Below the pieces are notes generated by a model. The model ran no database searches and had not been told where the DNA came from. It saw nothing but the letters and a program-made list of their open reading frames with translations. Source: a virus. Taken from it: DNA of 45,032 bases. How positions within the stretch are numbered: the first letter of the stretch is position 1; each line of letters opens with the position of its first letter. Shown piece by piece: positions 3 through 43,440 of this stretch. The position numbers and the translations under genes are program-made. The stretch spans positions 1 through 45,032 of the IMG/VR virus record IMGVR_UViG_3300036770_003316. One strand, 5' to 3'.

Positions 3-209
3 ACTTTGAGTATGTGATATTACTAAGTAATCTATTTTATCAGTGTATTCTTTTGTTTTAATCATGGCAGCAAATGGTCCGCCATCATATTTATTTCTAC
101 TTAGTCTTTCCTCTTCAATACTAAAAACTATTTTTCCATCTTTTAGTAGGCAAGCGCCAGCATTATGTCCTCGACTAATGCCTAGTATATATCCTGTTTT
201 TTCTATCAT
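3..209 (-). CDS. NodU/CmcH-type carbamoyltransferase, N-terminal fragment (runs off the window)
   Basis: I read this frame directly from the minus strand: it starts at an ATG at 209-207 and stays open to the window edge, giving 69 residues. The visible N-terminus has ILGISRGHNAGACLLKDGKI at residues 8-27, followed by an EEERLSR stretch. This is the characteristic start of the NodU/CmcH O-carbamoyltransferase family, whose members transfer a carbamoyl group from carbamoyl phosphate to a sugar hydroxyl. The start lies 2 nt after the stop of the glycosyltransferase gene, so the two are co-transcribed and probably translationally coupled. The upstream sequence is only a weak ribosome site (TTAGAA). 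Most of the protein, including the C-terminal domain, lies outside the window. I infer a role in decorating a glycan on the virion or host surface. The substrate cannot be read from this sequence. Confidence 0.85.
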   Translation of the reverse strand, partial: MIEKTGYILGISRGHNAGACLLKDGKIVFSIEEERLSRNKYDGGPFAAMIKTKEYTDKIDYLVISHTQS

Positions 210-211
210 TT

Positions 212-1264
212 CTAACCGGCTAAAGTTTGTTTATTAAACATATCTTTGATTTCTGCACTTAATACATTTGTTGTAGGTTGATGATTACAAGCAGCTGTAG
301 TACTTATATTATTTGGTACAACTATTTTATTTGATTTACTAGAAGATTTGCCTAATTTATTAGTAACGCTTTTAATTATTTTGTCAAAAGCTTTATCGTC
401 TAATACCATCAATTCTTCATTATCTCTATCAATAAACCAATCCATTGCAATTCTAATGGGGGAATATTTTCTCTTAGTTCCGCCGTTATCTATAATAGTA
501 AAGTTTTTATTGTATGGATAGCTTATATTTTCAGGATAAGTTGAGCCAATAACAACTGTGGCAGATTTTCCCAGAGCATTAGCAAAGTGTTGGCCTACAC
601 TATCACATCCTAGAAAATAATCACTGGCTTTAATTAATCCCATCCATTGAAGAAGATTTAAATTATCTGGTATTACTGCTGGCATTTGTTTATCTATAGG
701 CAGCTTTAAATCAGTGAATAAAATAACTGCATAATGTTTACCTAATTCTTCTACAATTCTAATTACATCATTGTATTCAAAACTGCGTCCACTTTCATCA
801 ATTACAAATCTACCTTGAAGTTTTGCTCCACTACCAAATGGTTGAAAAACTACTGTTTTTTCCTTATTCAATTGATACTTTACTTGTTCTACAAAATTAT
901 AACCAAATGCTTGATCACCTTTACCTAGTTCAATATTCAGTGGTTTAGGGTCAGGTATAGATTTTAAGTCATTTATTAAAATATCAAAAGCTTGAATTAA
1001 ATTTGCCCGCTGTGTAAAATAAGCGTTAAGTCTATAAGGTTCTGGGCTAATAATTTCTCTGTCTAGTAATTGATTATTAAATAAATTTTTATTATTTATA
1101 GGATAAGTTTTATCTCTAAGTACTGGGCTAAGGGAGAATAACTCGAACCAACCTTCAGCAACTACTATTATGTCTTGACTAATATTTTTTACATAATATT
1201 CTAAAGCTGGTAGAGCACATAGTACTCTACCACTACCGCCGTTTATAAAAAATGCTTTTTTCAT
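212..1264 (-). CDS. GT9-like glycosyltransferase (heptosyltransferase fold)
   Basis: This 350-residue protein resembles glycosyltransferase family 9, the ADP-heptose:LPS heptosyltransferase group. The N-terminal FINGGSGRVLCALPALE (residues 7-22) matches the family's first Rossmann beta-loop-helix. Residues 208-233 hold the conserved C-terminal nucleotide-sugar motif, including GCDSVGQHFANALGK at 219-233. Length is normal for GT9. About 60 C-terminal residues after 290 are polar and low in complexity and probably lie outside the catalytic fold. The gene has its own promoter immediately upstream and is followed after 2 nt by a carbamoyltransferase, so the pair looks like a small glycan-modification operon attached to the end of the tail-fibre genes. 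No clear Shine-Dalgarno sequence precedes the ATG. The family assignment is from motifs; the donor and acceptor are unknown. Phage GT9-like enzymes may act on host O-antigen or on virion proteins. Confidence 0.75.
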   Translation of the reverse strand: MKKAFFINGGSGRVLCALPALEYYVKNISQDIIVVAEGWFELFSLSPVLRDKTYPINNKNLFNNQLLDREIISPEPYRLNAYFTQRANLIQAFDILINDLKSIPDPKPLNIELGKGDQAFGYNFVEQVKYQLNKEKTVVFQPFGSGAKLQGRFVIDESGRSFEYNDVIRIVEELGKHYAVILFTDLKLPIDKQMPAVIPDNLNLLQWMGLIKASDYFLGCDSVGQHFANALGKSATVVIGSTYPENISYPYNKNFTIIDNGGTKRKYSPIRIAMDWFIDRDNEELMVLDDKAFDKIIKSVTNKLGKSSSKSNKIVVPNNISTTAACNHQPTTNVLSAEIKDMFNKQTLAG

Positions 1265-1340: not shown

Positions 1341-2441
1341 TTATGCAGTAATCCATTGAATACATGCGGCGCCTCCTCTACCTCGATCTCCCATAGCTTG
1401 AGTACAGCCGCCAAAAGCAGTTGCGCCAAAACCGCCTGCTCCTGCACAAGCTATATTCCCACTAGTTACGCCTATACCAATTGCCCAGGCATGGCAAGTT
1501 GAGGTATGATTATACCACCCATAACTAATAGTGGGAATTTGGCTTGATTGAATCGCTTGATATGGTACATTAGCAATAATTGCGCCATGTTGGTTGCTAT
1601 CAAAAAGATGCCCGCCATAAATACTAGGAATGGTCCATACTACGCCTCTAGTACTAGAACCGTATGCGCGTCTAGTATAACTTCCTTGTGCGTTTACGCA
1701 ACAGCCAGGTCCAGCTGCATACCCAAAATTACACACCCAACTACTACAGCAAATACAACCGCCGCAGCAGATACTGCTGCTAGTAGCGCAACCATGACGA
1801 ATAGCATAAAACTTACAACAACCACTGTCAATATATGTTTGACAACCAGCCGAGCATGCTCTAGCTTTCATGCTTTCCCAAAGGCTGGCCTCACCACCCT
1901 CTGCACAAAAATTTGTTAAGCCTGGACCAGTTATAAATGTTTTATTTCCGTTATAGCATCCTTGGTTTATCCAAGTTTGGCAACCACAGTTGCACTGACA
2001 GCCACAAGCACTAGTACCAACACTTATAGCATAAGATTCTCCGGGTGTTACAGACATAATAACACTGGCAAAAGCTCCTGTGGCTCCACTAGGTGCTATT
2101 CCGCAACAGTTGGGGGTGCCGCTACCAGCTCCAGCTCCCCAAATCATAAATCTAGCAAATTTAGCACCTGCTGGAACTGTCCAGCTGCCAGTTTGATAAC
2201 AAGGGGTTTGATCTCCAATACCTCCATTACTATTTGATACACAACTTAAGTTAAAATTTCCAAAATTACTTGTACTTTGAAGCTCTGGTATCATTGCCCA
2301 TAATTGAGTATTGTGTGCTAAACATGGATGTATACAGGCTGTGGGATAGCTCAGCAAATTACTCGTATCTGTTTCAATACCAGTAATATTAGCTTTTAAC
2401 CATTCAGCTTCTTGATATGCTGCTTGCTGTAGTATATCCAT
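1341..2441 (-). CDS. Cysteine- and glycine-rich virion appendage protein, copy 1
   Basis: This 366-residue protein has about 30 cysteines, roughly 8 percent of residues, many as CC pairs or CxC. I count GCQCNCGC and SSICCGGCICC among the clusters. The middle region follows the plan of phage glycine-rich domains: a beta entry (WTVPAGAKFARFMIWGAG), glycine loops, and a VTPGESYAISVG turn. Cysteines stand where such proteins usually carry glycine. Its paralogue lies at 3118-4173; both carry a short W(A/S)(M/L)IP(E/K)L motif near residue 50, just before the glycine-rich part. The ATG abuts the stop of the upstream gene, and the ribosome site GGAGAGGG lies inside that gene's end. No signal peptide or membrane segment is visible. 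Position at the end of the fibre operon suggests a distal fibre or receptor-contact protein; that role is inferred. The cysteines could form disulfides or bind metal. Confidence 0.7.
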   Translation of the reverse strand: MDILQQAAYQEAEWLKANITGIETDTSNLLSYPTACIHPCLAHNTQLWAMIPELQSTSNFGNFNLSCVSNSNGGIGDQTPCYQTGSWTVPAGAKFARFMIWGAGAGSGTPNCCGIAPSGATGAFASVIMSVTPGESYAISVGTSACGCQCNCGCQTWINQGCYNGNKTFITGPGLTNFCAEGGEASLWESMKARACSAGCQTYIDSGCCKFYAIRHGCATSSSICCGGCICCSSWVCNFGYAAGPGCCVNAQGSYTRRAYGSSTRGVVWTIPSIYGGHLFDSNQHGAIIANVPYQAIQSSQIPTISYGWYNHTSTCHAWAIGIGVTSGNIACAGAGGFGATAFGGCTQAMGDRGRGGAACIQWITA

Positions 2442-3107
2442 TTAATTACCCTCTCCAAGTAATGCTAATAAATTGTTGGGTATAGCAGGAGCACTGGAAA
2501 AAGTTGTATATTTCCAAACGATTTTAGTCTGTTCCTGTTCTATATAAGTTTCTAGTTCTGTCTTATAAGCATTTAAATATTGAGATTCTAGCTCTGTTAA
2601 ACGTCTTATAGAATCTGGTGCTGTATCTAAAGCAAATAGGCCGTCTATTTGAGTAATTAAACTAATAGCTTTTTGTAATCCCGGAGTTTTTGTATCTTTT
2701 ACTATTGGTTCTAGTTTCCAGGAAGCATTTTGACGATTATATTTAATCTGATAAAAATAATCATGTAACTGTGGATTAACTATCTTATTAAATACTGTGC
2801 CATCAGATAGTGTTTCATCTTCAAAAATATAACTACTAGAATCTTTAGGAACAAATAAAAAATAACCTATTTCTGGATATTGATCAAGGTCTATTCTAAT
2901 AATTTCTATATTAGGATTTATAGGAGCTAATTTTAACGAATCATCTAGTTTTATATGGTCTATTACTATATCCAATTGTTTATCTATAATTAAATCTAAG
3001 TACCTAATTCCATTATATGTAGCCGTTAGAGTTTTATTACCACTAATCGGTGCAAGGTATAACTCATCAGGTACAGGTATTGTAAAATCTTTTGTTATTA
3101 TACTCAT
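2442..3107 (-). CDS. Protein of unknown function between the two cysteine-rich paralogues
   Basis: This 221-residue protein is not recognised. It contains no cysteine, in sharp contrast with both neighbours. The first about 130 residues alternate polar and beta-branched residues and look like beta-sandwich. Residues about 140-200 are helical and charged (ELESQYLNAYKTELETYIEQ) and may form a coiled coil. A ribosome site (AGGTGA) lies 3-4 nt before the ATG. Its stop abuts the next ATG, so it is tightly coupled with the downstream cysteine-rich protein. Its position, size and separate coding next to a fibre-like gene would fit a fibre assembly factor or a small structural partner. This is inference from context only. 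Confidence 0.6.
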   Translation of the reverse strand: MSIITKDFTIPVPDELYLAPISGNKTLTATYNGIRYLDLIIDKQLDIVIDHIKLDDSLKLAPINPNIEIIRIDLDQYPEIGYFLFVPKDSSSYIFEDETLSDGTVFNKIVNPQLHDYFYQIKYNRQNASWKLEPIVKDTKTPGLQKAISLITQIDGLFALDTAPDSIRRLTELESQYLNAYKTELETYIEQEQTKIVWKYTTFSSAPAIPNNLLALLGEGN

Positions 3108-3117
3108 ATTTCACCTA

Positions 3118-4173
3118 TTAACAATAACTTATTCTAACCATGCCGAAACGACCAGAGTCACCTTGATAACTATTAGTTCCACCTTGCTGAATTACTGGAG
3201 CTCCACCAGCACTAGGAATTCTTAAAAAATCCTGACATTGAGCGCTACGAGCGATCCCATTAATACTGCTTCCAGCAGTCCAAGATACACAGCATTGACT
3301 AATATTTTCAAAACCATATATAGGAGGATGTATTGTAAAACCGGCGGTAGGATTCGTAGAAGGTAAACAAAAAGCTGGCCACATACCTGGTATTACATAG
3401 GCTGGAATACCTGTTATACTATTAGTACCACCACCTTTACCTGCTTTTCCATATGTAACTAGATTACTTGTTGGTTGCATATTGCTGCTACACCAATCTG
3501 AACCAGAATTACAAATAGCCATCGTAGTACCGCCACTATTAGTACAATGACTGCATCCTAAGTGTGGTAGACTATAGTCGGTGTGTGTAACATATCCAAA
3601 GCCGCCACCACAATTATTTTGTTGTTCCATATATCGAACAGCTATACATGAATAGCCAGCAACTGCACAAACTCCGCATAGGCCGTATCCTTGTACATAT
3701 GAGGGCCCTCCATAGCCTGGAGATGCCCATTGAGAATAGCAGCAATTAGCACAACCGGCACAAACCGTATATTGACAACCAGGAACAGCATCTATAATAA
3801 TACTTGTAAAACTACCTGATTGTCCAAAACCCCAACTGCCGCCACAACAACAGCCGCTACCTGTGCCTGCTCCTGGCCCCCATAATTCAAACTGCAGTTT
3901 AGTTGTACCACTTGGTACGGTAAAAGTGCAGGTTGCTCCACATCTAAACTGTGTTGCATCTGTAGCTGTGCTACATACCTGTATTACAGTAGCATTAGTA
4001 AGTTTTGGAATTAGGCTCCAGCAACTAGTATTTACCGGTAAATAAGTACTAGTTCCATTTCTGCTTAACGCTGCCGCACCATCGTAGGTAGCTTGTGCAG
4101 CAACTACGCTTGGAACAAGAACAGTTTTACTTGATTTATAAATTGCACTAGTTCGTACAATATCTATAGCCAT
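3118..4173 (-). CDS. Cysteine- and glycine-rich virion appendage protein, copy 2
   Basis: The frame is open from 4197, but I place the start at the ATG at 4173: AAAGGGG lies 6 nt upstream of it, directly after the TAA of the preceding gene, while the 4197 ATG lies inside that gene. The resulting 351-residue protein has about 25 cysteines, around 7 percent. A glycine-rich core contains FTVPSGTTKLQFELWGPGAG, then GSGCCCGGSW, VPGCQYTVCAGCANCC and LCGVC. The plan (VPxG, xxxxWGxGxG, VxPGxxYxxxxG) is that of the glycine-rich domains found in phage receptor-binding proteins, with many glycine positions taken by cysteine. It is a paralogue of the 1341-2441 product. I infer a tail appendage role. Confidence 0.7.
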   Translation of the reverse strand: MAIDIVRTSAIYKSSKTVLVPSVVAAQATYDGAAALSRNGTSTYLPVNTSCWSLIPKLTNATVIQVCSTATDATQFRCGATCTFTVPSGTTKLQFELWGPGAGTGSGCCCGGSWGFGQSGSFTSIIIDAVPGCQYTVCAGCANCCYSQWASPGYGGPSYVQGYGLCGVCAVAGYSCIAVRYMEQQNNCGGGFGYVTHTDYSLPHLGCSHCTNSGGTTMAICNSGSDWCSSNMQPTSNLVTYGKAGKGGGTNSITGIPAYVIPGMWPAFCLPSTNPTAGFTIHPPIYGFENISQCCVSWTAGSSINGIARSAQCQDFLRIPSAGGAPVIQQGGTNSYQGDSGRFGMVRISYC

Positions 4174-4186
4174 TATAGTCCCCTTT

Positions 4187-6337
4187 TTAAGCTGCAATAG
4201 CTCTAGTTATATTGTTTATTTCGCCACTAGCTAAATAAGTAATAGTATATTCATAACGCTGACTATTACCTGTTACAGCTGCTCTAAATGAAGTTAATTT
4301 TTTACTTGTATTTGCTGTAGTTGTATAGACAATATTGTCATAAATCACATTATTGTCTTTATAGTAGGTTACAAAACCAGTAGCGTCATATGTTATATCT
4401 GTACTACTACTATAAGTTTCTGGAAATTGTGCAACATTATCTACATAGTGCTTTACAGCATATTCTGTAGGAATAGCTTGATTACTAAATCCGCTTAATA
4501 GATTATCGCTGCTAAATTCATTAATAGTCTCGCCAAGCTGCGCACCAATACTACCAAGCCTTAAACTGCTTAAGCCACTTAAATCAAATGCACTAGCATT
4601 TAGCGTTGCGCGACCAGTGGCTTGATCAATTTTGAAATATTCACCAACTCTAAAATTACCGTCTTGGTCCGTACTTACATAGAATACTCGTCCTGGGAAT
4701 ACTTCTTCAACTTCATTACCTTGACTAGCGGCTTGAGTTGGAGTATTAGGATAATTAGTGGTTGAGACACCGCCTGTACCAATACTTAAAAAATCATGTC
4801 CTGTTAATCTAATTTGAGAATACTTAGATCTAATAGTAGTTATTTTTGCTGTATCGCTGCCAGTTAATTTTTCCTGCGCTAAAACTACCGCAATTATACT
4901 AGTATTATCGGTATATGTGCCTGTTACACTTTGTATAACATAAGCGGAAGTATCCTCTTCAATTTGTATACTTTGACCTGGTTTTGGTAGTGCAGTTAAT
5001 GTATTCATAACCAACACAAAACCTTTTTGAAACTCTAGTGCTCCAGTAGCTACTGTAGCAGTACCGCCAGCAGTACTAGTAATGCTGTCGCCAGAAGTCC
5101 AGGTGCCCGTATAGTTTCTTACATATACTTTTCCAGCAGTAAGTTGGCTATTAGTAATAATTGCTGTAGCACCAGTAGTAGTATTGGTAATAGTATCACC
5201 AACTGCAAAATTACCGCTAACATTCGCAATGTTTAACTGTCTGCCAAAGATTCTACCAGTTATAGGTGTTTCACCAGTATCAAATCCACGACTTGTAGCA
5301 CCCCAAGTACCATAACTATTATTACCATTAAGAGCGCGTATATGTCCGCCACCAGTACTTGAATATCCAAAGTAACAGTAATAGGTAAAACAACTTACAA
5401 TTTCTGCACGCCCGCCATCCTTTACCCAATAACCTACGCCGTTATCACTTATAACAGTGTATCCATGAAAAATCATTGATTTATAACCAGTACTTGGGCT
5501 ACTACCGTCAACAAGCGCACCAATTCCTCCAGTTAATATAGCTGTACACTCTAATATATAGGGTGACTTAGTAGTTACTGGACTACTTGGGTTTAGTCTT
5601 GCTACTACTCCTTTTATAGTACTTGTTGTAATATCTGCTGGAGTTAATCCCGGAACCCAACCAGTCATACCTTTAAAAGTCATCTTATTAAGAATAGACC
5701 CATCTGACATATAAAACATAGTACTTTGATTATTAGGTGTTACCCCATCATCGCTATTACCAGCTTTAGGTTGAATATTTACAGTTCGTTGATTATCTCC
5801 TACAATAGCTACATTTGCCGGAACCGTAATAGGTAGTTGCTCACTGTAGGTACCGCTTTTAACATATATAGTACTACCAGTAGGCACATTTGCACATGCA
5901 TATTTAAGTGTTAAGAATGGAGTACTTAAACTATTACCAGAGCCTAATTGGTCAGCTCCATGAGAGGCCACATAATAAACATTGGCACTAGCTGTATTTT
6001 GAATTAAAATTGGGGACCAATAAGTAGTATTGGTTGGTAAATTTCCTGTACTTGGTGTATTATTAATATATTGGTATATACTTCCAGAATAGCTTACAGT
6101 ACTACCGCGACCATACTCAGAACTATTATTATAGGCGCCTTCCCAAAATAGTCCACTAGCTAATAGTCCCCAGAACTGAGCGTTACTGGTCAATGTACCC
6201 GTTGTCTTGGCTGTACTAATATATACGTAGCCATTACCCTTATAAAATACTACATCATTAAATTGATATTCAGTACTAGAGCTCCAAGTGCCTTTAAACT
6301 GAAATCTAATCTTGCCTAAATCTAAAATTTGAGCCAT
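4187..6337 (-). CDS. Beta-helix tail fibre with N-terminal carbohydrate-binding-like repeats
   Basis: This 716-residue protein opens with two related modules of about 50 residues (FKGTWSSSTEYQFNDVVFYK and FWEGAYNNSSEYGRGSTVSY) that resemble family 5/12 carbohydrate-binding repeats. From about residue 120 it shows YYVASHGADQLGSGNSLSTP and YVKSGTYSEQLPITVPANVA, the start of a DUF1565/pectin-lyase-like right-handed beta-helix. Around residues 540-600 it has VFYVSTDQDGNFRVGEYFKI, a segment I associate with structural proteins of T4-like cyanophages. I see no obvious catalytic residues. It is coupled to the upstream gene by a TAATG overlap at 6337. The likely role is a tail fibre or tailspike-like adhesin that binds surface polysaccharide. 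Confidence 0.75.
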   Translation of the reverse strand: MAQILDLGKIRFQFKGTWSSSTEYQFNDVVFYKGNGYVYISTAKTTGTLTSNAQFWGLLASGLFWEGAYNNSSEYGRGSTVSYSGSIYQYINNTPSTGNLPTNTTYWSPILIQNTASANVYYVASHGADQLGSGNSLSTPFLTLKYACANVPTGSTIYVKSGTYSEQLPITVPANVAIVGDNQRTVNIQPKAGNSDDGVTPNNQSTMFYMSDGSILNKMTFKGMTGWVPGLTPADITTSTIKGVVARLNPSSPVTTKSPYILECTAILTGGIGALVDGSSPSTGYKSMIFHGYTVISDNGVGYWVKDGGRAEIVSCFTYYCYFGYSSTGGGHIRALNGNNSYGTWGATSRGFDTGETPITGRIFGRQLNIANVSGNFAVGDTITNTTTGATAIITNSQLTAGKVYVRNYTGTWTSGDSITSTAGGTATVATGALEFQKGFVLVMNTLTALPKPGQSIQIEEDTSAYVIQSVTGTYTDNTSIIAVVLAQEKLTGSDTAKITTIRSKYSQIRLTGHDFLSIGTGGVSTTNYPNTPTQAASQGNEVEEVFPGRVFYVSTDQDGNFRVGEYFKIDQATGRATLNASAFDLSGLSSLRLGSIGAQLGETINEFSSDNLLSGFSNQAIPTEYAVKHYVDNVAQFPETYSSSTDITYDATGFVTYYKDNNVIYDNIVYTTTANTSKKLTSFRAAVTGNSQRYEYTITYLASGEINNITRAIAA

Positions 6338-6594
6338 TATTTGTACTCCATTAACAGTCGGCCAGAACTTGTTATACTAAATTTAATAGTATCGCTGGAC
6401 CAAAAATATATTAGATAGTCTTGTGCACTTGTTGCATATTCATCTGGTAAGTAAACTACGCTACCGTCTACACCATTATCAAAATCAAAATAAAGCTGAC
6501 CATTAGGAGCATCCATTCTAAACCCATAAAATGCTTTATCAGCATAATCATGTCCTGTGGTAGCATTATAGCCTGCATAAATTCCACCTGCCAT
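6337..6594 (-). CDS. Small virion-associated protein, unknown
   Basis: An 85-residue product with an aromatic, beta-rich sequence (LYFDFDNGVDGSVVYLPDEY) and no membrane segment. It overlaps both neighbours by one base in TAATG junctions (6594 and 6337), so translation is probably coupled through this gene to the beta-helix fibre. The family is not recognised. Its place within the appendage operon suggests a small fibre or adaptor subunit. Confidence 0.6.
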   Translation of the reverse strand: MAGGIYAGYNATTGHDYADKAFYGFRMDAPNGQLYFDFDNGVDGSVVYLPDEYATSAQDYLIYFWSSDTIKFSITSSGRLLMEYK

Positions 6595-6917
6595 TATGAT
6601 ACTCCTTCTAAATACGATACTATTATTTCAAATGCATTATTATCACTAGCATTAGCACTAATAGTATCACCTACTTCTAATATCAGCTTATTACCTGCTA
6701 TGAAATCTACATATTGGCCGGCTTCTATGCGTCTAGCTTTTGCTATATGTGCACTGGTGCCGCCGCTTTTATTTATTTTTATGGTAATAGGTAATACTGA
6801 CCCATATACATTAGTAGTTATTAAACCTATAACTACTGTTTTTGAACTTGGTGTAAATACTGTTACATTAGTAGTACCTATACCAGTTTTTATTGCGCTT
6901 TTAAATGCTGTTGGCAT
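6594..6917 (-). CDS. Small beta-rich phage appendage protein
   Basis: A 107-residue protein with alternating hydrophobic pattern (TVVIGLITTNVYGSVLPITI) and a C-terminal LEVGDTISANASDNNAFEII section. This pattern is common in small tail-fibre associated or virion decoration proteins of aquatic phages, where it reads as a compact beta sandwich. It begins 3 nt after the previous stop and ends in a TAATG overlap with the next gene. There is no signal peptide or catalytic motif. The function is inferred only from its place in the operon. Confidence 0.6.
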   Translation of the reverse strand: MPTAFKSAIKTGIGTTNVTVFTPSSKTVVIGLITTNVYGSVLPITIKINKSGGTSAHIAKARRIEAGQYVDFIAGNKLILEVGDTISANASDNNAFEIIVSYLEGVS

Positions 6918-37771: not shown

Positions 37772-39205
37772 TTAAGCAATGTAACGAACTGTAGCAACGC
37801 CTTGACCATCAACTGTTGATAGTTGTGTCATGCCAATGCGCATGCTTGCTACTAGGATGCTGCGTTGCTCAGCAACGATGTCGTCGCTGTCAACACGCAT
37901 ACCGCGGTGTGTACCGCCTAGGAAGTTCATTGGGTTAACAATAACAGCAGCAGCCTCACCTGCAGCAGCAGCATTAAAGCTTGCGCTGACGATTACTGGT
38001 GTATTGCCAACGCTGCCGACTTGTCCTGTTAGGATTGTAGCAGCTGGTCCTGCTTTATCTACTGTTAAGAAGTTTGTATCTTCTAGTAGCTCATAGTAAG
38101 CCTGTGTGCTTACAAATAGTACTAGTTCGCTAGGATTTAATCCCCAGGCACCTAGTGCCTTACGAGCTGCCATTGCTTTAGCAACTGTAAACTTGTCAGC
38201 ATTACTAATATCTAGTGTGCCACCAAAAGCATTAACTACTGTGTCATAGCTAGCTAGACCTTTAACTAATGCTGCTGTCTGACCACTTGTGCTACCAGCA
38301 CCTGTACCATCGCCAAGTAACATGGCTTTGTCAAGTGTTTTAGCCATACGACGTGCCATTGCATCACGTACTAGTGGAAGAATAGGAATAATGCTATCTT
38401 CATCTTCTTCAAATGCAATAAACTCTTTTGTTGCTAGTTTATATGCGCTTAGTGTGATTTCTGTAATAGCATGTGTACGCTGTGTACCGCTGCTGTTACT
38501 TGTGCCAAAATCAGTACCAGCAACCCATGTTGCATTTGTACCTGTATCTGGGTTAACAGGAATCTTCATAACTGGTTGAGCCATAGCAATGCTACGAACA
38601 ACTGGAGTTACTACTAGTTGACGACGCATTTCATTTTGAATTGTCGTGCTGACTTCTTCTTCCCAGCGCTCGTGTGGTAGGCGGAAAGCACCACCAAATG
38701 TAGCTGCTTTTTCTACTAAGGCTTTACCAAACTTGGTTTCACCAATACCTTTGCGCATGATCTTGGCTAGTAGAACTGCCTTTTCTTTGTCGCCATAAGC
38801 AATGTCGCCATCCTTTGGCTCGCTAAACTGCATGCGGCTACGCTGTAGGGCTTCGATTTCACCACTCTTGCTTTGTAGTTGCTCTAGCTCTTTGGCTTTT
38901 TCACGAATTGTAGCTTCTAGGCTTTCGATTGCTGATTTGTGCTCGTTAGCTTGATCTTCTAAACGCTTTTCAATATCGCCTAGTAAACGCTCTGCACCTG
39001 TGTCGACTGTTTGTACGACTGGAGCTTGTGGGGTAACGGCACTAACTGCAGCCTTGATTTTAGCTTGTAGGGCTTCTTCTTCAGCAGCCTTACGCTTGGC
39101 TTCATCAGCAGCTTTTGTTTGTGCTTCTAGTACAGCTTTAGCAGTTTGCTCAGCAGCTTTAGCAGCAGCATCTGCTAGTAATTTCTCTAACTCTTTTGGA
39201 TCCAT
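37772..39205 (-). CDS. Internal-start product: delta scaffold plus major capsid protein
   Basis: Within the fused frame an ATG at 39205 (codon 196) follows GAGG by 8 nt and begins MDPKELEKLLADAAAK, a natural N-terminus for an HK97-type delta domain. It lies exactly where the protease and linker end. This start would give a 477-residue capsid precursor without protease and would solve the stoichiometry problem of a one-to-one fusion. The site is read directly from the sequence; its use is inferred. Confidence 0.6.
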   Translation of the reverse strand: MDPKELEKLLADAAAKAAEQTAKAVLEAQTKAADEAKRKAAEEEALQAKIKAAVSAVTPQAPVVQTVDTGAERLLGDIEKRLEDQANEHKSAIESLEATIREKAKELEQLQSKSGEIEALQRSRMQFSEPKDGDIAYGDKEKAVLLAKIMRKGIGETKFGKALVEKAATFGGAFRLPHERWEEEVSTTIQNEMRRQLVVTPVVRSIAMAQPVMKIPVNPDTGTNATWVAGTDFGTSNSSGTQRTHAITEITLSAYKLATKEFIAFEEDEDSIIPILPLVRDAMARRMAKTLDKAMLLGDGTGAGSTSGQTAALVKGLASYDTVVNAFGGTLDISNADKFTVAKAMAARKALGAWGLNPSELVLFVSTQAYYELLEDTNFLTVDKAGPAATILTGQVGSVGNTPVIVSASFNAAAAGEAAAVIVNPMNFLGGTHRGMRVDSDDIVAEQRSILVASMRIGMTQLSTVDGQGVATVRYIA

Positions 39206-39790
39206 GTCCCATTCCTCATTTGTTGTGCTTTTTGCTGCTTTTGGGGTATCGAGCTTTTTAGCTGATGCCTTTGGTGCTGGCGCAAATTGCTGTTTAAATA
39301 AATCAAATTCTGCAGCTGTATCAAAAGCTTTAGCTAAGCTAAATAATGTATTTTGATTTGCTGGTACACTAACTACACTGATTTCATGTAGCTCTAGGTC
39401 TTTAACTAAAAACGTTTCTGTAGTATGGTCATAATCCGCATCACGAACTCTGAACCCTACGCTAAATGCACTTAATATACCCTTTTTAATCAGTTTGTAT
39501 ACATCACCTACTTCAGCAGGAATCTGCGCTCGAATCCACAAACCCTGATCTGTAACTTTATGCTCAACCATTTTACCGATTGGCATTTGATGATTGTGAT
39601 AGGCTAGTATAATTGGATTTTTGAGATAGTTATGCAATCCCTCGTTCCACGCTTTCATAGGGATCACATCACCCTGACGATCACGATCTACTGTGCTAGC
39701 ATATCCTTCAATAAAAATGCTATCATCAGACTCTGTACTAGCTGTAAACTTACTGCTTAAATAGAGTAATTTATCTAGCTTTTTGTCCAT
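37772..39790 (-). CDS. Prohead protease - major capsid protein fusion
   Basis: The frame is open from 39820, but AAAGGAG lies 5 nt before the ATG at 39790, which I take as the start (672 residues). Residues 20-155 are an HK97-type prohead protease of peptidase family U35: His65/67 in ILAYHNHQMPIG, Ser107 in ILSAFSVGF, and a LHEISVVSVPAN strand. Residues 196-310 are an Ala/Lys/Glu-rich coiled coil typical of the scaffolding delta region. Residues about 370-672 are an HK97-fold capsid domain (FRLPHERWEEEVSTTIQNEM, EFIAFEEDEDSIIPILPLVR, and DDIVAEQRSILVASMRIGMT). A second start at 39205 would give capsid protein alone. In HK97 the protease and capsid are separate genes. The gene starts one base after the portal stop. 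Confidence 0.88.
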   Translation of the reverse strand: MDKKLDKLLYLSSKFTASTESDDSIFIEGYASTVDRDRQGDVIPMKAWNEGLHNYLKNPIILAYHNHQMPIGKMVEHKVTDQGLWIRAQIPAEVGDVYKLIKKGILSAFSVGFRVRDADYDHTTETFLVKDLELHEISVVSVPANQNTLFSLAKAFDTAAEFDLFKQQFAPAPKASAKKLDTPKAAKSTTNEEWDMDPKELEKLLADAAAKAAEQTAKAVLEAQTKAADEAKRKAAEEEALQAKIKAAVSAVTPQAPVVQTVDTGAERLLGDIEKRLEDQANEHKSAIESLEATIREKAKELEQLQSKSGEIEALQRSRMQFSEPKDGDIAYGDKEKAVLLAKIMRKGIGETKFGKALVEKAATFGGAFRLPHERWEEEVSTTIQNEMRRQLVVTPVVRSIAMAQPVMKIPVNPDTGTNATWVAGTDFGTSNSSGTQRTHAITEITLSAYKLATKEFIAFEEDEDSIIPILPLVRDAMARRMAKTLDKAMLLGDGTGAGSTSGQTAALVKGLASYDTVVNAFGGTLDISNADKFTVAKAMAARKALGAWGLNPSELVLFVSTQAYYELLEDTNFLTVDKAGPAATILTGQVGSVGNTPVIVSASFNAAAAGEAAAVIVNPMNFLGGTHRGMRVDSDDIVAEQRSILVASMRIGMTQLSTVDGQGVATVRYIA

Positions 39791-39791
39791 A

Positions 39792-40976
39792 TTACTCCTT
39801 TGTCGTACTAGGCCTACCACCTTGAGATGGGTTGGCTGCTGAACCTGCTATGTTAGCAGGTATTCTTATAGTATCCTGACCTTCTAGTTTAGGATACCGT
39901 AATTCTATTCTAGCCTCATTAGGAGTAATAATACCTCCGTTAACTAATGAACTGTGATACGCTGCTACATCTTTTAGTTCGGGTTGCAGTGCGCTAACAT
40001 TGCTAGTTACTGGGGCTACGTCATAGCCAAAGTAACGCTCAAGCGCGCTGTTATACAAACCTACTAGTGGTAGTACAGTTTCTAGGTAGAATAATCGTAA
40101 GTTAGGACTTATATTTGCGTTGTTGCCACCAGTTAATAATATGGGCGGTACACCAATAGTAGTCATTATACGCTCACTGTGTGTGCGCATGGCTACATCA
40201 AAATCTAAGTCACTAAAATTTTGATCGCTAAGTTTCTGCGGTTTAAGTCCACTATCTAGGATAATTGGTCTGCGTCCGCCGCTTTTAGCATTATATCTTT
40301 GTTGCCAGTAGCTAACTGTTTTTTCCTTAGCTGCTTGGCTTAGTGTATTTTCTGTAGTTAATACTAGTCCAAAAATAGTACCATTATCAAAGAATTTTTC
40401 TTGAAACTCTTGCATACTGTAGAGTATGTTTATATTCTCTAAACATGCCTCCAGTCGGCTAGCTCCACGATAAATACTATCTGAACTCAAATCTTTAAAG
40501 TAAAATACTTCACGTTCTGTAAAGTCTACTTTGCCAGTATATCTGTATCCACGAATATAAGTAACTGGGTCACTTAATATTTCTACATTATTAGCTGGCA
40601 GGTGATACATAAATGTACCATCAAAGTGTATAAAAGCATTACCGTCCAACAACAAGTCTTTGAAGAGCTCTTTGCGAAACTCTACTGCACTTTGATAGGG
40701 ATTTGGTCTAAAGTTAAGCAGTGTAAGTAATGTTTTCTGACGAACGCCATTAACTACACCATCATGAACTTTGTCTTTTATATCATAGTCTAAACTAGCG
40801 CAAGCACTAACTACCATGTTAACAGCGCGATTAACGCTGTCTATATTTTTAAATGCTGTGCGATAGTTGTTGATACGAGCACTGCTTTGAATGCTGGTGC
40901 CCTCATCGTAGTGTATCTGCTGTTGAGCTGGATTAAGTTTCTCGCTAATCCAGCTACGAATTCTTTCTAACGCCAT
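39792..40976 (-). CDS. Portal protein (HK97 family)
   Basis: A 394-residue portal with the family hallmarks: RSWISEKLNPAQQQIHYDEG at the start, NRAVNMVVSACASLDYDI (helical), LLDGNAFIHF, YFKDLSSDSIYRGASRLEAC, FFDNGTIFGLVLTTENTLSQ, IMTTIGVPPILLTG (about residue 275) and a C-terminal GGIITPNEARIELRYPKLEG. The normal size is 390-430. It forms the dodecameric ring at the packaging vertex. It overlaps the HNH endonuclease gene by 23 bp and ends one base before the capsid fusion gene. Confidence 0.92.
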   Translation of the reverse strand: MALERIRSWISEKLNPAQQQIHYDEGTSIQSSARINNYRTAFKNIDSVNRAVNMVVSACASLDYDIKDKVHDGVVNGVRQKTLLTLLNFRPNPYQSAVEFRKELFKDLLLDGNAFIHFDGTFMYHLPANNVEILSDPVTYIRGYRYTGKVDFTEREVFYFKDLSSDSIYRGASRLEACLENINILYSMQEFQEKFFDNGTIFGLVLTTENTLSQAAKEKTVSYWQQRYNAKSGGRRPIILDSGLKPQKLSDQNFSDLDFDVAMRTHSERIMTTIGVPPILLTGGNNANISPNLRLFYLETVLPLVGLYNSALERYFGYDVAPVTSNVSALQPELKDVAAYHSSLVNGGIITPNEARIELRYPKLEGQDTIRIPANIAGSAANPSQGGRPSTTKE

Positions 40977-41415
40977 CTAAGCCCCCTGTGAACTCACTAA
41001 AGTAGCTGTTATAGCTGCTTCCGCGAAACACACTCTCACCACTTTGATGCTTTTGTTGTTGTAGTTCTATCCAATGTCGTTGCTTGTCTACACTGCTTGG
41101 TGCAGGACTTTTACCATAAATACCGTGTAGTTGTACATGGTGTCTATTACAGAGAGTATAGACTAAGTCATATATTTCTACATGGTGTTCTTGGATGAAA
41201 CGATCGCGAACAGCTAGTATAGCTTCATCAGTGCTTATATCAATCCCATTAGCACGCGACCATACCTCTAGGAGGTGGGTGATACTGTGCAGGTGATGAA
41301 GTTCTAGTTCTAGGGTACTACTACAAATATAGCAATGTGGTTGCTTTGCGTAAGCAGATTTTGCTTTGTCACGAATCCACTTTACTGGTATGCGTTTATT
41401 TGTGTTTACTGCCAT
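40954..41415 (-). CDS. HNH endonuclease next to the packaging genes
   Basis: A 153-residue protein with a zinc-knuckle HNH core: Cys28-x-x-Cys31 (HCYIC), ELHHLHS (residues 38-44) for the first HNH histidines, and Cys89-x-x-His92 with His97 (LCNRHHVQLHG). HNH proteins beside the terminase and portal are widespread in HK97-like phages. In HK97, gp74 stimulates terminase cutting at cos. This one lies on the same strand as the portal, with its own promoter 30 bp upstream of the ATG, so a packaging role is more likely than a selfish homing one. The 23-bp overlap with the portal suggests tight coupling. Confidence 0.82.
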   Translation of the reverse strand: MAVNTNKRIPVKWIRDKAKSAYAKQPHCYICSSTLELELHHLHSITHLLEVWSRANGIDISTDEAILAVRDRFIQEHHVEIYDLVYTLCNRHHVQLHGIYGKSPAPSSVDKQRHWIELQQQKHQSGESVFRGSSYNSYFSEFTGGLDGVRKNS

Positions 41416-41533: not shown

Positions 41534-41562
41534 TTGAAACCCAGACTAAAAGGGTGTATAAT
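41534..41562 (+). promoter_or_regulatory. Sigma70 promoter for the antisense GIY-YIG gene
   Basis: TTGAAA (41534-41539), a 17-bp spacer, and TATAAT (41557-41562) precede the GIY-YIG ATG at 41591 by 28 bp. The TTG of the -35 box is also in frame with the gene, but a start there would fall within the promoter, so the ATG is preferred. Start-to-ATG distance leaves about 22 nt of leader with no clear ribosome site. Confidence 0.85.
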
Positions 41563-41590
41563 AGTAGTTTTAACTCAACAAAACAAATAT

Positions 41591-42154
41591 ATGAACAGCG
41601 GAATATATCAACTAACTTTTACTAGTGGTCACTACTATATTGGCAAAAGCGAAAATATACCCAAGCGCTGGGATACGCATACTCGTAACTTTGAGCAAGG
41701 TAAACACACACGCAAAATGCAGTGGGCTTATGACAACTATGGTATGCCCAATTTTCAGGTCATAATGGTAGTACACCCAGATCATATCGACCTCTACGAA
41801 CGTGCAATGATACAGGTTAGCTGGGTCGACCACCTAATACTCAACGGCACTAAACCGCAGCCAATAAGCCAAGCGGATCTAGACAAGCTCGACCTAGCAG
41901 AGCGCACTACTATAGAGGATAAGTATATTATGCAATTAGGTACGCTAGAGCATATTGAATATCTTTGGCGTTTTAAGGAGCAGAGTGATCGTTATAAAAC
42001 CGAACTCGAACAACTAGAAGATACAGACGAAACCGTTAAACAACTGCGGCAACTAGAGCAAGCAAACCAAAACCTCCGTAACCAGCAACAAGCACTCCAA
42101 CAAGAAATCAACCACTTTAAAAGCTTAAACTGGTGGCAACGTATTTGGTACTAG
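41591..42154 (+). CDS. GIY-YIG endonuclease, antisense between terminase and HNH/portal
   Basis: Starting at the ATG at 41591 gives 187 residues. The N-terminal GIY-YIG nuclease core is complete: GIY at residues 4-6, YIG at 16-18, the catalytic Arg26 in PKRWDTH, and catalytic Glu70 in LYERAMI. The last 50 residues (ELEQLEDTDETVKQLRQLEQ and a QQQALQQEI helix, then WWQRIWY) are a coiled coil rather than a typical DNA-binding tail, so target choice may differ from I-TevI. It is the only plus-strand gene in the late region. Its TAG overlaps the TAG of the large terminase, on the opposite strand, in one CTAG. This suggests a mobile gene inserted between terminase and HNH. A resident regulatory or repair nuclease is also possible. 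Confidence 0.82.
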   Translation: MNSGIYQLTFTSGHYYIGKSENIPKRWDTHTRNFEQGKHTRKMQWAYDNYGMPNFQVIMVVHPDHIDLYERAMIQVSWVDHLILNGTKPQPISQADLDKLDLAERTTIEDKYIMQLGTLEHIEYLWRFKEQSDRYKTELEQLEDTDETVKQLRQLEQANQNLRNQQQALQQEINHFKSLNWWQRIWY

Positions 42155-43440
42155 ACTACATAGCTGTATAGTGCATAGCGGAGTGCATCGGCCATGTGAC
42201 TGTAACGATCATGCTTGGGTCGTTCACGAATAAGCCCCTGCTTATCATCCCAACGATACTGGTCTAGCATAGCTAATACATGTTGACAATCTTTATGTAC
42301 CCGCAACCGGCCCTGCTGCACAAGCGTTTGCACATATGCAATACCGGGCAATACGTCCTTTTTCGCACGTGTAGTTGCAATTTCATAGTTGTAGGCAAGA
42401 TCAGCTGCAAACTGTGCAGCAGCGCTATCAATAAATATGGTTTCCACACCCCAGCGTTCTATCATCTTATGAAAGTGTTCCGCATGCTCACGTGTAGTCC
42501 GTTCCGCTTCAAGATAATCTTCTACACAATAAAAGCAGTCACTGGCAAAATCATAGACAATATTAACCCAGGCTGTTTCGTCACGATAACCAGGATCTAG
42601 CCCACTAAAAGCCTCACCACGTAGCTTTGGCAATTCGTCTAGGATATACTCTGGCCTAAAACCCTCATAGATTTGACCTAGGTAGCTAGTAAAACTGGCC
42701 ATATACTCCTGCTCAAACTCCGATTTAGGCATCGATCGACGTGCTTCCTCAACATCTGATTCAGCCATGCGTGTATTCTCCGAATAATCCGCTTGCAGGC
42801 TACACCACTCGGGAAATTGTGGGTCAAATCCACGCTGATAAAATTTACTAAACCAGTTGTTGCGACCACGAGGTGTACTAATAAATAGGGCTTTAGCACC
42901 TGGGCGATCAAGTGTAGGACGTAGTGCTACATTAAATGCATCTTCTCCACGATCCGATAATGCAGCCTCGTCAAATATAATAAGATCATAGCTGCGACCT
43001 ACTGTACTATCCACAGTACTAATAGATCCCATGCGTATTGTCGATCCGTTCGACAACTCAATAATCTTGTCCTTTAGGTTATCACGCTCAACCTCAAGAT
43101 CAAAGTGCTTGATCAGTCTACGCTGCAGTTCAAACGAGATCGAGCTCAGGTTATAGTTAGGTGATATTATTAATACATTACTATTAGGCACTAGTGTTAC
43201 TAGTTGGCCTATAATATTGGCTATATAAGTTTTACCCAATCGTCTGGCAAGTGCAGCGCAGATGAATCGGTACTTGGGATCGTTGACGGCATTGATTAGT
43301 GCAATCTGTGGACGATTAATTGTATCATAGATGTTTAGCAATCTAAGGTAGTTGTCAATAGGCAGCTTGATAAAACGCTGGCCAGGATCAAACTCAGTTA
43401 TATAATCGCAATCAACATCTGGTCGGCTTACTACTAGCAT
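42151..43440 (-). CDS. terL: Terminase large subunit
   Basis: A 429-residue packaging motor. The ATPase has a deviant Walker A at residues 65-71 (ARRLGKT), Walker B at 153-158 (LIIFDE) and a coupling motif at 188-190 (STP, followed by RGRNNWF). The RNase H-like nuclease domain has acidic residues at GLDPGYRDET (280-289), FIDSAAAQ (336-343) and the terminal HDRYSHMADALRYAL (Asp418 is a good metal ligand). The motif spacing is that of Terminase_6-type subunits. It overlaps the small subunit gene by one base (TAATG) and shares its stop region with the antisense GIY-YIG gene. Confidence 0.94.
   Translation of the reverse strand: MLVVSRPDVDCDYITEFDPGQRFIKLPIDNYLRLLNIYDTINRPQIALINAVNDPKYRFICAALARRLGKTYIANIIGQLVTLVPNSNVLIISPNYNLSSISFELQRRLIKHFDLEVERDNLKDKIIELSNGSTIRMGSISTVDSTVGRSYDLIIFDEAALSDRGEDAFNVALRPTLDRPGAKALFISTPRGRNNWFSKFYQRGFDPQFPEWCSLQADYSENTRMAESDVEEARRSMPKSEFEQEYMASFTSYLGQIYEGFRPEYILDELPKLRGEAFSGLDPGYRDETAWVNIVYDFASDCFYCVEDYLEAERTTREHAEHFHKMIERWGVETIFIDSAAAQFAADLAYNYEIATTRAKKDVLPGIAYVQTLVQQGRLRVHKDCQHVLAMLDQYRWDDKQGLIRERPKHDRYSHMADALRYALYSYVV

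Follow-up and report, generated by a model that had tools for sequence, protein, structure and literature searches.

Cysteine-dense tail proteins encoded beside a GT9-like transferase in cyanophages and other phages: a proposal for S-glycosylated receptor-binding tips

Background

In the glycocin systems, the dedicated and genetically linked enzymes SunS and ThuS join a sugar to the sulphur of cysteine. These enzymes are of the GT2 type and act on small secreted bacteriocins that have one or two sites. The phage system described here differs from them in its GT9-like enzyme, in the large phage proteins involved, and in offering dozens of possible sites. A second comparison is with the heptosylated adhesins: TibC heptosylates the adhesin TibA (PMC4358343). 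The TibC/AAH enzymes and their substrates TibA/AIDA-I resemble the phage system in that an adhesin has a dedicated GT-B heptosyltransferase, in the many sites, and in ADP-heptose as the probable donor (PMC4358343). The differences are as follows. In TibC/AAH the acceptor is serine, and the enzyme has a four-cysteine iron finger and a catalytic aspartate. In the phage system, cysteine is the candidate acceptor, the enzyme contains three cysteines, an arginine appears to stand where GT9 enzymes have the aspartate, and the substrate would be a phage tip.

The proteins themselves are closest to the T4-type gp38 adhesins and Gly_rich_2 tips, with which they share a glycine-rich plan and the position of the gene behind the fibre. 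They depart from these tips in a cysteine content of 6–12% and in having a transferase gene as a regular neighbour; an ordinary Gly_rich_2 protein of phage P-SSM2 is 0.4% cysteine. The gene cluster is homologous to, and ordered like, the cassette of P-SSM2, S-SSM7 and S-CAM1 made up of the “hypothetical” clusters T4-GC 299, 301 and 302 together with a carbamoyltransferase and the “LPS” clusters T4-GC 303–308 (PMC3037559). The 2010 comparison of T4-like cyanophages reported co-occurring “LPS” genes, T4-GC 304, 305, 307 and 308 among them, and left it undecided whether these genes function or serve as stuffer DNA (PMC3037559). The association between a transferase and cysteine-dense tail proteins reported below is real and widespread, and no earlier description of it was found: the papers readable without subscription contained none of cysteine-rich cyanophage fibres or tips with a modifying enzyme, nor of phage S-glycosylation.

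The Cysteine-Rich Pair and Its Surroundings

The window is the whole 45,032-nucleotide stretch of viral DNA analysed (IMG/VR record IMGVR_UViG_3300036770_003316). On its minus strand, in the direction of transcription, lie genes for a tail fibre, a 351-residue protein, a 221-residue protein, a 366-residue protein, a GT9-like transferase, and the start of a carbamoyltransferase. The 351-residue product, the first copy of the cysteine-rich putative tip protein (3118..4173, minus strand), contains 25 cysteines (7.1%), and the 366-residue second copy (1341..2441, minus strand) contains 30 (8.2%). The initial annotation had counted these correctly, and the values lie far outside chance. The 24 other main open reading frames of the window have 43 cysteines in 12,924 residues (0.33%), and at this background the binomial chance is 5e-25 for 25 in 351 and 1e-31 for 30 in 366. 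Because both proteins match phrog_35878 and phrog_4205, two families of unknown function, they are read as paralogues, as had been suggested; the accompanying remark that no function is described for the type agrees with PHROGs and Pfam, which give none. We infer that both are virion proteins.

The fibre operon also contains two small genes, for products of 85 and 107 residues (6337..6917, minus strand), whose homologues lie upstream of the fibre in nine other loci (e.g., L035, L038–L041 and L056). Farther away, the window terminase (42151–43440) shares about 50% identity with the terminases of T5-like phages and Vibrio siphophages, yet the segment 4187–6337 belongs to a fibre/tip cassette common to the window phage and T4-like cyanophages, so modules have been exchanged between distant phage types. 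Inspection by eye showed a GIY-YIG-like reading frame (41534–42154, plus strand, opposite to the HNH-like one) and an HNH-like one (40954–41415, minus strand) near the terminase, both possibly homing endonucleases, and a prohead protease fused to the major capsid protein in a single product of 682 residues (37772–39820).

The Cysteine-Rich Family

A tblastn search placed relatives in the T4-like cyanophages P-SSM2, P-SSM5 and S-CAM1, as well as in marine phage contigs from single cells. Cysteine-rich members are PSSM2_304 and PSSM2_306 of P-SSM2, in which PSSM2_307 is the transferase, and SSSM7_114–116 of S-SSM7. Searches of viral contigs with single cysteine-rich proteins gave no matches, and a profile search of IMG/VR, built on an alignment of five sequences, gave 245 relatives and 74 loci. 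Together with the isolates, the IMG/VR loci supply 152 family reading frames, every one of them 6–12% cysteine, a figure to be read with the partial bias toward cysteine-rich members that comes from using one cysteine-containing and one cysteine-free (FQLWGAG-like) search pattern. Both window products are members of a large family, so far without a name, whose proteins have a PF21722-like glycine-rich domain. The usual arrangement is of tandem cysteine-rich copies accompanied by a cysteine-free likely chaperone, downstream of a tail fibre.

Conservation of the cysteines among homologues was the check proposed with the initial annotation, and the positions are indeed kept. Among 102 non-redundant family proteins, about 14 cysteine columns are retained in 76–99%, with a core subset at 85–99%. 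In the numbering of the first copy these are C67, C78, C82, C109, C110, C138, C141, C144, C145, C169, C210, C221, C228 and C294. The columns of C78, C141, C144 and C145 co-vary (phi 0.60–0.74), above the level of other residue types. Fifty proteins have an even number of cysteines and 52 an odd number. In a tree of the family, the nearest neighbour of each copy is the copy at the same position in another phage (84 of 84), and this grouping by position indicates that the duplication is ancient. Copy number nevertheless differs among lineages, since S-CAM1 (L004:3920–6720) and S-CAM3 (L086:5958–8776) have three adjacent copies of 8–12% cysteine, and S-SSM7 and Sf-FS3 have three shorter ones.

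The glycine-rich domain plan of receptor-binding proteins, also claimed at the outset, is borne out by the homologues and by fold comparison. The Pfam Gly_rich_2 profile (PF21722) matches SXBG_00224 of S-CAM1 with an E value of 4e-10. Homologues in S-CAM1, S-CAM3, S-SSM7 and Sf-FS3 score above its cut-off, eight out of 82 proteins of the family give E ≤ 0.1, and neither window protein matches this profile. The family is thus best described, at the level of sequence, as a divergent relative of Gly_rich_2 rather than a clear member. An AlphaFold model of the first copy (pLDDT 79) gave Foldseek matches to a fibre of cyanophage Pam3 (9e-5), to the Bxb1 tail tip (2e-3), to many phage glycine-rich-domain proteins in BFVD, to Syn9 gp38, and to the ALK/LTK glycine-rich domains; it shares the fold of known glycine-rich tips, with moderate TM-scores (0.3–0.5). 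A sequence search of the PDB with the cysteine-rich profile or a homologue returned nothing.

The tail context is supplied by the neighbouring genes. The fibre gene directly upstream (4187..6337, minus strand) matches the tail fiber family phrog_9851 at 6e-173, and homologous fibres precede the cysteine-rich genes in most loci. The protein between the copies (2442..3107, minus strand; 221 residues) has no cysteine, as first noted, and the gene in this position is cysteine-poor across 69 loci, with a median of zero. It is related to phrog_9740, members of which have the Phage_tail_APC domain PF16778. That domain scores above its cut-off in the between-copies relatives of S-SSM7, Sf-FS3, L182 and L187, and it is found as well in the corresponding gene beside the unrelated cysteine-rich proteins of AG-345-O18 and L186. 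The window protein itself does not match the PF16778 profile, and a fold search with its model (pLDDT 92) gave no PDB match and nothing usable. The product is likely to be a tail-fibre assembly chaperone, and the chaperone domain in its relatives supports a tail-fibre or tip role for the cysteine-rich proteins, a role that we consider very probable.

The proposal that the cysteines replaced glycines of a polyglycine sandwich did not survive. At the cysteine columns, glycine makes up 8.8% of the non-cysteine residues, against 16.7% elsewhere, and charged residues, asparagine, glutamine and histidine make up 36–39%, against 22%. P-SSM2 encodes elsewhere in its genome a second Gly_rich_2 protein, glycine-rich overall, with two cysteines in 485 residues (0.4%), and this paralogue has glycine at 2 of 12 aligned cysteine columns in a weak alignment. 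Column composition and the paralogue both speak against the replacement. The pattern fits better with the cysteine columns being exposed positions; exposed single sites would be expected to show polar replacements and no preference for an even or odd number of cysteines.

The Transferase and Heptose Genes

Downstream of the second copy lies the gene of a GT9/heptosyltransferase-like protein (212..1264, minus strand), our proposed S-glycosyltransferase, which matches phrog_8954 at 1e-134. The PF01075 profile gives it 21.7 bits, against a cut-off of 22, and gives the D505 homologue 24.5 bits, above the cut-off; a profile of the transferase aligns to E. coli WaaC with an E value of 0.02. A D-x4-H nucleotide-sugar motif is present near the C-terminus, where D221 and H226 are invariant in ten phage sequences and align with WaaC. 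The catalytic aspartate of WaaC lies in an N-terminal GDV motif and is the base in GT9 heptosyltransferases. The phage enzymes appear to lack it: their motif is GRV or GRI, with an arginine, R13, that is invariant in the ten sequences and is placed opposite the WaaC GDV through a weak segment of the alignment. One may speculate that arginine in place of aspartate is compatible with a thiol acceptor needing less activation. With three cysteines in total, the window enzyme does not have the four-cysteine iron finger of the BAHT enzymes.

The next gene (3..209, minus strand), for a NodU-like carbamoyltransferase, is cut off by the window edge after 69 codons; this part is 59% identical to PSSM2_308, which has PF16861/PF02543 domains. 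In P-SSM2, the carbamoyltransferase is followed by genes resembling heptose-1-P adenylyltransferase (1e-30) and heptose-7-P kinase (3e-43) and by those of a HAD phosphatase, a cupin and an ADP-heptose epimerase-like protein (5e-62); all of them fall short of the curated equivalog cut-off. Past the point at which the window ends, phages closely related to it (L035, L039 and L041) carry the same set. ADP-heptose-type genes with a carbamoyltransferase occur in 13 of 13 marine records and in 0 of 3 Vibrio/Aeromonas records. Gram-negative hosts generally make heptose. Heptose is absent from cyanobacterial LPS (PMC4515613), so a cyanophage would have to bring the pathway with it.

Two public annotations within the P-SSM2 cassette look wrong. 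PSSM2_312 (L002:17637–17993), a “cysteine dioxygenase”, was considered as a clue to cysteine chemistry and rejected, its product being a small cupin nearest WbuC, and PSSM2_311 (L002:17312–17656), a “phosphoheptose isomerase”, encodes a HAD phosphatase with EcbF/BcbF as its nearest match. The S-SSM7-like lineage has an extra gene between the chaperone and the transferase (L184:7260–7928, L081:9658–10317 and L085:7905–8537), a 2OG-Fe(II) oxygenase by match in L184 and by annotation in L085; it is possibly a further tip-modifying enzyme.

Co-Occurrence of the Transferase with Cysteine-Dense Proteins

The order fibre, cysteine-rich protein, chaperone, cysteine-rich protein, transferase, carbamoyltransferase recurs across 80 loci, and those lacking the transferase reach contig ends. 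The pairing also holds in the other direction. A reverse search used the transferase alone, with patterns independent of the cysteine-rich genes and with at least 2 kb of upstream sequence required, and gave 77 loci. The window family was present in 70 of these and another cysteine-rich protein in two; among background reading frames, 0.6% have at least 5% cysteine. The remaining five are Vibrio phages D505 and SBP1 (two records), Aeromonas phage HJ05, and L099. Each has one of three things: a cysteine-dense tail protein on the opposite side of the transferase, a cysteine-dense domain just short of the threshold, or the cysteine-rich family further along: the tail proteins adjoining the transferase in D505, SBP1 and HJ05 bear dense cysteine clusters, and L099 has its cysteine-rich genes further along. 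Six additional loci on MAG contigs, evidently of phage, agree in every case. These contigs (L182–L187) are labelled Actinomycetota, Euryarchaeota, Rhodobacteraceae, Gammaproteobacteria and Flavobacteriales; they carry the phage cassette and look misbinned. A search of viral contigs for the distant transferase group gave only one SBP1-like record, equal to SBP1 in length (78,071 bases).

The partners of the transferase are not all of one family. In AG-345-O18 it lies beside proteins of 758 residues with 73 cysteines and 290 residues with 31, and in AG-345-P14 beside one of 282 residues with 26, a different type that is found again in L116 and L159; the Vibrio phage tail proteins are yet another type. 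The probability of profile–profile homology between these unrelated neighbours and the window family is below 1%, and a search for a sequence motif common to them around the cysteines found none. Whole-genome scans of six transferase-bearing isolates placed the most cysteine-dense protein in the cluster adjoining the transferase each time, and in HJ05, D505 and SBP1 the sole reading frame with at least 8 cysteines per 100 residues sits there. The same scans of the cyanophages S-SM2, S-T4 and P-TIM68 found heptose genes, no such transferase, and no cysteine-dense protein (cut-off at least 10). The heptose genes of these three phages lie in LPS-like clusters, so such genes have another use too. 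Since the partners are unrelated, and since phages lacking the transferase lack cysteine-dense proteins, high cysteine content goes with the transferase rather than with the fold. Because the loci share ancestry, the counts overstate independence, the independent cases being the handful of unrelated partners; even so, we hold the link between the transferase and cysteine-dense tail proteins with high confidence.

A Proposal for S-Glycosylated Tips and Its Alternatives

We suggest that the cysteine-rich pair would form the distal, receptor-binding tips of the tail fibre, built on a glycine-rich-type domain and assembled with the aid of the cysteine-free chaperone. Many of the tip cysteines would be acceptors for the dedicated GT9-like transferase, which would attach a heptose-type sugar through sulphur, and the NodU-like carbamoyltransferase would then carbamoylate the attached sugar. 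The ADP-heptose enzymes would come from the same cassette, where relatives of the window phage encode them. A surface of S-linked sugars would contribute to the face that binds the host, and the sugars would protect the thiols against oxidation or scrambling outside the cell. For this reading as a whole we put the chances at about even. Modification of the cysteines themselves, the candidate acceptors, is favoured because the transferase accompanies cysteine-dense tail proteins of unrelated sequence, and for this step, too, the odds appear balanced. Were the cysteines modified, heptose would be the likely sugar, as suggested by the resemblance to GT9 enzymes, including the WaaC alignment, and by the ADP-heptose-type genes. 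Previous proteomic work on virions treated the samples with DTT and iodoacetamide, and cysteine peptides bearing a sugar could have escaped assignment there.

The initial annotation had listed disulfide locking, metal binding and covalent attachment to the host among possible uses, and had overlooked the heptosyltransferase-like gene next door. Were the cysteines to form pairs once lysis had released them into oxic water, making the tip rigid, with the transferase glycosylating serine or threonine of tip or fibre, the conserved columns, the stronger co-variation of some of them and the Foldseek matches to ALK/LTK domains would all be accounted for. We nevertheless regard this as rather unlikely, because cysteine number shows no parity preference, variable cysteine sites are replaced by polar residues, and the presence of the transferase beside several unrelated cysteine-dense proteins is left without explanation. 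A zinc or iron site in the conserved clusters (CCC, CxxCxxCC), stabilising the glycine-rich loops, could make use of the co-varying set C78/C141/C144/C145, but it would account for only a few of 21–51 cysteines, the clusters differ between unrelated neighbours, and the transferase would have no role; we think it improbable. Least probable by far is that reactive free thiols bond covalently to thiols of the host surface: a high cysteine density on a probable receptor-binding protein would suit it, but the relatives give no support, thiols are expected to oxidise in seawater, and the adjacent transferase is unexplained.

It might also be that the genes for the transferase, the carbamoyltransferase and the heptose enzymes act on a surface polysaccharide of the host, for instance to block superinfection, and that they adjoin the tip genes only as part of a travelling host-interaction cassette. 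Such cyanophage genes have been called LPS genes (PMC3037559), and similar heptose genes stand in LPS-like clusters of S-SM2, S-T4 and P-TIM68. Those three phages, however, have neither this transferase nor cysteine-dense proteins, and the transferase's neighbour is cysteine-dense even where unrelated, and even in Vibrio/Aeromonas phages without heptose genes, so that this explanation has little probability. Between S-glycosylation and the structural readings, a mixed picture is quite possible, with a structural core of cysteines and modified ones at the surface, since disulfides or a metal site could account for the conserved core and the co-varying C78/C141/C144/C145.

The S-glycosylation proposal may be extended, more tentatively and at somewhat less than even odds, to a general phage system of cysteine S-heptosylation, in which a GT9-like enzyme with arginine for aspartate would act on dozens of cysteines in several unrelated tips. 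Cyanophages would carry the ADP-heptose pathway and the carbamoyltransferase, and Vibrio/Aeromonas phages would use the ADP-heptose of the host.

Implications

A cysteine content near 10% is very unusual for proteins made in the cytoplasm, and here it is widespread in aquatic phages, including the textbook cyanophages P-SSM2, S-SSM7 and S-CAM1/3, which carry such proteins as hypotheticals. The link to the transferase offers a concrete and testable reason for it, and a GT9-like gene with a cysteine-dense neighbour is a genome signature for receptor-binding proteins. If the proposal is true, some of the cyanophage “LPS” genes for which the 2010 comparison had no explanation would have a role in the virion, and the tips would represent a novel type both of protein glycosylation and of receptor-binding surface.
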